Shown here: in pieces, positions 22,205 to 22,757 of the stretch
How the letters are laid out: each line of letters opens with the position of its first letter
Position numbering within the stretch: the first letter of the stretch is position 1
Assembly (NCBI GenBank): GCA_902556355.1
Contig: CACDVW010000011.1
Coordinates: forward strand, 1 to 40,250
DNA length: 40,250 bases
DNA from: an uncultured SAR86 cluster bacterium
Lineage (GTDB): Bacteria; Pseudomonadota; Gammaproteobacteria; Magnimaribacterales; D2472
Reading direction: 5' to 3'
Made by a program: the position numbers and the translations under genes
The notes under the pieces: model-generated
What the model was told of the DNA's origin: nothing
Seen by the model: the letters and a program-made list of their open reading frames with translations, nothing else
Databases searched by the model: none

Positions 22205-22318
22205 ATGGATAAAGATGCGGGGTATGAAATATCAGAACAAATGCCTTATGAAGAATATCAAGAAAAATTAAAACAATATTGCCTCAATAAATTTCCAGAA
22301 AAGCTTATACCACTTTAA
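22205..22318 (+). pseudogene. 37-aa ORF or C-terminal gene fragment directly abutting the NTF2-like fragment
   Basis: MDKDAGYEISEQMPYEEYQEKLKQYCLNKFPEKLIPL*, followed by a terminator; no clear RBS. Confidence 0.4.
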
Positions 22319-22319
22319 A

Positions 22320-22347
22320 AAAAAGAGAGCATTTTGCTCTCTTTTTC
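22320..22347. terminator. Bidirectional Rho-independent terminator
   Basis: AAAAGAGAGCA-TTT-TGCTCTCTTTTT. Confidence 0.88.
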
Positions 22348-22362
22348 GTTAATTGAAAAACC

Positions 22363-22527
22363 TTACAAATAGTAAGGAAAGAATACATCCTTTTTAGGTT
22401 TAGACTTATGCTCAGTTTTATTTTGCATGCGTAAATTGTAATTAAGCTTGTTAATTGCGATTTGCAACATGACATTGTTTCCTAACTTAGGTGTATATTG
22501 TTTTTTTTGAATGTTTAAAGCATTCAT
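22363..22527 (-). CDS. 54-aa basic protein downstream of tandem glutamine riboswitch-like RNA
   Basis: MNALNIQKKQYTPKLGNNVMLQIAINKLNYNLRMQNKTEHKSKPKKDVFFPYYL*; strong AAGGAG SD; terminator follows at 22320-22347; absent from the ORF track because it is under 60 aa. Confidence 0.8.
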   Translation of the reverse strand: MNALNIQKKQYTPKLGNNVMLQIAINKLNYNLRMQNKTEHKSKPKKDVFFPYYL

Positions 22528-22548
22528 AACATCTCCTTTTTAAAAAGA

Positions 22549-22597
22549 TGCGTTCCTTCGGTATCATTACCTACTTCCGTCTCTTGCGAGATGAACG
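22549..22597 (-). promoter_or_regulatory. Glutamine riboswitch-like aptamer, proximal copy
   Basis: CGUUCA-[UCUC GCAA GAGA]-CGGAAGUA-[GGUA AUGA UACC]-GAAGGAACGCA; P1 CGUUC/GAACG closes a three-way junction; conserved CGGAAGUAG and GAAGGAACGC segments. Confidence 0.85.
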
Positions 22598-22604
22598 ATG
22601 ATAA

Positions 22605-22651
22605 TGCGTTCCTTCATCTTGCGACTACTTCCGTCCCCTTAAGGATGAACG
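22605..22651 (-). promoter_or_regulatory. Glutamine riboswitch-like aptamer, distal copy
   Basis: CGUUCA-[UCCU UAAG GGGA]-CGGAAGUA-[GUC GCAA GAU]-GAAGGAACGCA; same core, different helix sequences (helix-preserving variation). Confidence 0.83.
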
Positions 22652-22659
22652 ATTTAAAA

Positions 22660-22688
22660 ATATTAACAGAGAAAAAATATATATACAA
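22660..22688 (-). promoter_or_regulatory. Sigma70-like promoter for the riboswitch-54aa transcript
   Basis: TTGTAT-17 nt-TAATAT on the minus strand; expected start site just 5' of the distal aptamer. Confidence 0.55.
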
Positions 22689-22757
22689 ATTTTATATATA
22701 TAAAATAGATAACTATTTTTAAACACAATATGTGTATAAAAATAAATTTAAATTAAG

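Follow-up and report, generated by a model that had tools for sequence, protein, structure and literature searches.

Two glutamine aptamers lie in direct succession ahead of one small gene in an uncultured SAR86 cluster bacterium. Do they act independently, as such doublets have been classified, or does the first act through the second? We addressed this by covariance-model searches, comparative sequence analysis and constrained RNA folding, starting from a 40,250-nucleotide stretch of contig CACDVW010000011.1 (hereafter the window). Our reading is that the locus is likely to be a tandem glutamine-I riboswitch whose aptamers are chained, and which at high glutamine would switch ON the translation of a 54-aa protein.

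Two glutamine-I aptamers upstream of a small ORF

All features of this locus are encoded by the minus strand. A distal aptamer (22603–22653) is followed head to tail by a proximal aptamer (22547–22599), a Shine-Dalgarno sequence (SD) and a 54-codon ORF (22363–22527, start codon 22525–22527). Both aptamers belong to Rfam family RF01739: the proximal one matches the covariance model with 61.9 bits (E 1.8e-11) and the distal one with 59.9 bits (E 6.5e-11), compared with a gathering cut-off of 35. Each has the conserved junction CGGAAGUA and a linchpin C after P1, and from the family match both are predicted to bind L-glutamine. The aptamers are separated by a linker of 9 nt that contains neither a terminator nor a ribosome binding site (RBS), which leaves the distal aptamer without an expression platform of its own. 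A terminator scan likewise found none between aptamer and ORF. A likely intrinsic terminator 3' of the ORF (AAAAAGAGAGC-AAAAU-GCUCUCUUUUU, then U-rich; 22317–22346) was recognized by eye and is absent from the output of that scan. The promoter scan gave nothing above chance for the cassette; a weak promoter-like site directly upstream of the distal aptamer (22676–22704) has 9 of 12 matches, which is within chance expectation.

Aptamers above the family cut-off occur in 81 of 203 SAR86-order genomes. One review describes glutamine riboswitches as confined to cyanobacteria, though the paper that founded the class also records them in marine metagenomes and in tandem (PMC2864571), and one is known from a marine methylophage (PMC9004378). 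The locus resembles the glutamine-I (glnA, type 1) riboswitch, for example that of Synechocystis gifB (PMC6316151), in its aptamer, junction, linchpin C, short downstream gene and expected ON direction, but the host is a gammaproteobacterium and the downstream protein is not IF17. With the Glutamine-II (Downstream-peptide) riboswitch RF01704, an ON switch for which occlusion of the RBS has been proposed (PMC6698751), it shares the short downstream ORF, the expected direction and the proposed mode of occlusion. RF01704 differs by its pseudoknot fold and has no match in the window.

A covarying helix over the Shine-Dalgarno sequence

The tail of the proximal aptamer, GCAUCUUUUU (22551–22542), pairs with AAGGAGAUGU (22538–22529) through 10 bp including three G-U pairs, leaving a 3-nt loop and fully enclosing the GGAG of the SD (22533–22536). 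When the leader is folded without constraints, its minimum-energy structure includes this hairpin. The original prediction, whose quoted RNA matches the minus strand letter for letter, had proposed that GCAUCU pairs with AGAUGU and buries the SD, and the comparative data bear this out. Aptamers with their downstream DNA were collected from SAR86 genomes and marine viral contigs, yielding 93 unique tail/SD combinations. At least 4 contiguous bp starting from the linchpin C were found in 71% of the native pairs, compared with 26% after tails and SDs were swapped between loci. Among 37 sequences that could be aligned in a fixed register, the covariation score was 0.457 compared with 0.247 ± 0.025 for shuffled pairings (0 of 500 as high), and slid registers gave at most 0.27. 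The same set contained 32 double-change cells, the shuffled mean being 12.8, and both sides were altered at four of the six pairs. Compensatory classes include CAUC/GAUG, CACC/GGUG, CACU/AGUG and CAAUC/GAUUG, and two loci have extra inner stems (UUGCU/AGCA in L015, UGCC/GGCA in L028). Other platforms are found at some loci, such as CUUUAC/GUAAAG hairpins that likewise cover the SD, and at some loci of the collected set no platform was evident. The anti-SD helix is thus real, conserved and covarying, and as a translational platform it is of a common type.

The 5' strand of this helix shares two nucleotides with the bound aptamer, the final G of P1 and the C next to it. This C (22550), directly 3' of P1, is the equivalent of C60 in the solved glutamine-I aptamer, which pairs with junction G23 only when glutamine is bound (PMC11477058). 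By motif position and analogy with that structure, the junction GG at 22577–22578 is the putative equivalent of G22/G23. The proposed reuse of the final G-C of the aptamer, linchpin included, is confirmed, and the anti-SD helix and the bound aptamer exclude each other at these two positions. Because the helix uses both nucleotides, ligand binding should weaken it. When the proximal aptamer of the window was held bound and its C withheld, the computed cost of opening the SD dropped by 2.4–2.6 kcal/mol, from 6.0 to 3.5–3.6 kcal/mol, which if taken literally corresponds to a roughly 50-fold shift at 37 °C. Of 96 leaders, 63 became cheaper to open by more than 1 kcal/mol when G and C were withheld, and the opening cost itself was 5.4 in native compared with 2.6 in shuffled leaders; in both figures some start codons are set too early, as the AUG inside GGAGAUG was taken as the start codon in some leaders of this set.

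The original proposal that ligand binding should free the SD is supported, with a limit on how far the SD would open. Folding with the constrained aptamer does lower the opening cost, but the bound-state model loses only 2 of the 10 bp. An 8-bp AU-rich helix persists, and the probability that GGAG is unpaired rises from 0.01 in the free state to 0.04–0.05, so that the SD stays mostly paired at equilibrium. Switching would thus depend on a smaller energy barrier to the ribosome, which would have to finish the opening itself, rather than on full release. The proposed glutamine-ON direction is well supported by this anatomy, with its conserved helix from the linchpin C and lower computed cost, and by analogy with gifB, since glutamine-ON has been shown experimentally for the cyanobacterial type-1 riboswitch (PMC6316151). 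Considered alone, an ON switch operating through the anti-SD helix is highly probable.

A second helix between the aptamers and its possible role

The original prediction considered only the proximal aptamer. Its proximal switch stands, but a second helix of like design seems to couple the distal aptamer to this switch. The distal tail CAUUAUC, located in the linker (22606–22600) and beginning with the distal linchpin C, forms 7 bp with GGUAAUG (22571–22565) in the unconstrained leader fold of lowest energy. GGUAAUG comprises the 5' strand and the loop of the proximal P3 hairpin GGUAAUGAUACC (22560–22571, from the Rfam alignment), to which the tail-P3 helix is an alternative. We took tandems from genomes and viral contigs and scored the 34 unique translational ones. 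The mean tail-P3 helix score was 4.72, compared with 3.77 when the P3s were permuted (0 of 20,000 permutations as high). Pairing the distal tail with the P3 of its own aptamer scored 1.60 and with the P3s of single aptamers 2.04. P3 is also the stand-out leader region for this tail, with 4.78 for native and 2.29 for shuffled linkers, whereas P2, J2/3, J3/1 and the spacer are at or below the shuffled level and the SD region is slightly above it.

In 18 of 26 class-1 tandems, which have linkers of 6–11 nt devoid of terminator and RBS, the 7-bp helix is found in a fixed register. Compensatory forms are UAUUAUC/GGUAAUA (L126) and CAUUGUU/GGCAAUG, the latter in two P3 contexts. Tail and P3 covary with a score of 0.177 compared with 0.129 (0 of 500 as high; slid registers at most 0.087) and with 6 double-change cells compared with 1.9, these double changes being confined to two positions in a set whose related sequences are not independent. 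GGUAAUG itself is kept in class-1 tandems, whereas the 3' half of their P3 is variable.

A survey has filed 157 glutamine doublets as pseudo-cooperative, that is as pairs of complete and independent riboswitches (PMC9481103). Like the members of that class, the window has a pair of successive glutamine aptamers upstream of a single gene. It departs from the published picture in the relation between them, as the linker is too short for a platform and provides a covarying match to the next aptamer. Applied to this locus, the published classification would mean that the anti-SD helix is functional, that each aptamer acts for itself, and that the tail-P3 complementarity has no role or was inherited with a spreading cassette. 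We consider this unlikely. It is consistent with the roughly one third of translational tandems (class 2) in which the tail-P3 helix is weak or absent: linkers of the CAUCUU type allow 4 bp, the helix is absent with CCGAA and CCACAUU linkers, and most of the CAUUGUAAAA set lacks it as well. The coupling is thus not universal, and little of it is predicted even for some class-1 tandems. Against independence stand the covariation of tail and P3 and the conservation of GGUAAUG beside a varying P3 3' half. Moreover, the distal aptamer of class-1 tandems has no output of its own, because their short linker holds neither terminator nor RBS, and good pairing with the SD is limited to the proximal tail, as expected of two aptamers sharing one platform. 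In CAUCUU-type tandems the two tails are nearly identical and the distal one could also reach the SD, which is perhaps another way for both aptamers to count.

In constrained folding of 70 tandems the predicted coupling between the two aptamers averaged 2.0 kcal/mol, compared with 0.76 kcal/mol with shuffled linkers; in the window it was 2.9 compared with 1.5 kcal/mol, only about twice the shuffled value. At 37 °C the tail-P3 helix has a probability of 0.93 when the RNA is free, which falls to 0.56 once the distal aptamer is fixed in its bound fold, and at 15 °C it changes from 0.95 to 0.86, a small modelled effect. Taken together, the data favor a coupling between the two aptamers somewhat over its absence.

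The proximal aptamer thus seems to serve as the expression platform of its distal neighbor. In the chain that we infer from these models, absence of glutamine would leave the proximal tail, from its linchpin C, paired with the SD, blocking the ribosome, while the distal tail, from its own linchpin C, would occupy the 5' half of P3 in the proximal aptamer and keep that aptamer unfolded. Glutamine on the distal aptamer would draw in the distal linchpin C and weaken the tail-P3 helix. The proximal aptamer could then fold, bind glutamine and draw in its own linchpin C, which would weaken the anti-SD helix and allow translation of the 54-aa protein. Distal binding would thereby license proximal folding, and proximal binding would license translation, giving one output with a cooperative, steeper response to glutamine.

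Cooperativity might also arise by contact. The distal tail and P3 could form a tertiary, loop-type contact that the ligand stabilizes and that aids both folds, with no mutual exclusion between them. The best-kept segment, CAUU/AAUG, would suit such a contact, as AAUG, one part of the partner sequence, lies in the P3 loop. However, the complementarity continues through the 5' strand of P3, where GGU/GGC covaries with the tail, and pairing there needs an opened P3. The helix is also already present in the free-state fold without ligand. We regard a tertiary contact as improbable. A glutamine-OFF or mainly transcriptional switch is very improbable: other SAR86 glutamine aptamers, upstream of glutamine synthetase, have a different hairpin platform and may be OFF, but here the bases withdrawn by the ligand are those of the anti-SD helix, no terminator lies between aptamer and ORF, and type-1 riboswitches in cyanobacteria are known as ON.

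Glycine tandem riboswitches also place two aptamers before one expression platform and act cooperatively, with inter-aptamer contacts of the glycine type. The chained SAR86 tandem is alike in its two similar aptamers, single output and expected cooperativity, and differs in that its coupling would be a base-paired helix between distal tail and proximal P3 in place of such contacts. In the literature that we searched, which covers the key papers of the class only in part, neither the tail-P3 helix nor glutamine switches of this tandem type in SAR86 are described, and the series wiring of two glutamine aptamers looks new. If the tail-to-P3 helix acts as proposed, tandem glutamine aptamers would be a cooperative device of simple, testable and transplantable design.

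The 54-aa protein and other glutamine-aptamer loci

The ORF (MNALNIQKK...KKDVFFPYYL) is real and under purifying selection, with a dN/dS of 0.03–0.19 in seven relatives. It is present in 11 of the 203 SAR86-order genomes, all 11 of which carry tandem aptamers, and at those loci that were read it starts directly 3' of the anti-SD helix. The protein is basic (net +8) with an invariant C-terminal KK..FFPYYL. Single-sequence AlphaFold2 predicts one helix (residues 15–39) and a mostly disordered remainder at a mean pLDDT of 67, too weak for a fold search. Membership in a known family was ruled out by the lack of matches in Pfam, NCBIfam, PHROGs and PDB sequences, and tblastn against phage records gave nothing better than E 5. 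Isolate phages yielded just short partial matches to the leader. A conserved operon partner was also ruled out; the genes flanking the cassette change from one relative to the next, which makes it look like an autonomous unit.

Nine SAR86 genomes were searched for nitrogen regulators. Glutamine synthetase (GS) is present in all nine and PII in eight, while the adenylyltransferase GlnE was not detected in any of them. A small basic protein induced by glutamine in a cell that lacks GlnE invites comparison with the cyanobacterial GS inactivating factors, and we offer this as a hypothesis by analogy. The ORF, lacking any Pfam match, does not contain DUF4278, the N-terminal part of IF17, and this domain is absent from six genomes searched, that of the window included. 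It is present in another SAR86 lineage behind a similar tandem leader (L020). More broadly, serial wiring, with the second aptamer as the platform of the first and the tails invading first P3 and then the SD, may be a device common to SAR86 and many marine viruses for making small basic proteins, possibly GS regulators in the absence of GlnE, at high glutamine; we hold this wider proposal to be evenly balanced. Glutamine-ON control of small uncharacterized proteins would be placed in an abundant heterotrophic lineage, with no GlnE detected in the nine genomes searched, and in marine viral contigs. This raises the question of whether small proteins regulate nitrogen assimilation in SAR86 and viruses as inactivating factors do in cyanobacteria.

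In many marine viral contigs (L078, L090, L142, L172, L248 and others), basic ORFs of 30–65 aa are preceded by one glutamine aptamer or a tandem of them, together with anti-SD helices that covary. A large viral ORF family behind such aptamers has the pattern MTKYQ..RAVKK..LPxYITDNPFYP. Profile comparison lent no support to its common descent with the SAR86 54-aa family, giving a probability of 1.7%. Two of its members (L117, L307) have an inserted YRG motif resembling DUF4278, which hints at a link to the N-terminal domain of IF17. Small ORFs of the DUF4278 type, one above the Pfam cut-off, were found behind tandem glutamine aptamers outside cyanobacteria, in SAR86 relatives and a Porticoccaceae MAG (L020, L027, L211, L393).

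Further loci differ in gene and platform. Seven (L009, L011, L016, L062, L063, L212, L214) have a single glutamine aptamer and no evident anti-SD helix before a 476-aa protein without family assignment. Aptamers upstream of glutamine synthetase and of a TonB-type receptor (L005–L008, L024, L032, L034–L037) have in common the hairpin GUUAAAC...GUUUAAC, which is likely a different platform and perhaps OFF. A DUF4177-like 71-aa ORF follows a single aptamer with an extended anti-SD stem, UUGCC/GGCA, at nine loci (L028, L205, L207, L219, L223–L225, L229, L230). In other SAR86 (L012, L017, L019, L057, L209, L210), a single glutamine aptamer lies upstream of a gene resembling gltB (glutamate synthase), whose SD is covered by a strong AUCUUUC/GGAAGGAU helix. 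Glutamine-ON control would fit this gene, because glutamate synthase consumes glutamine.
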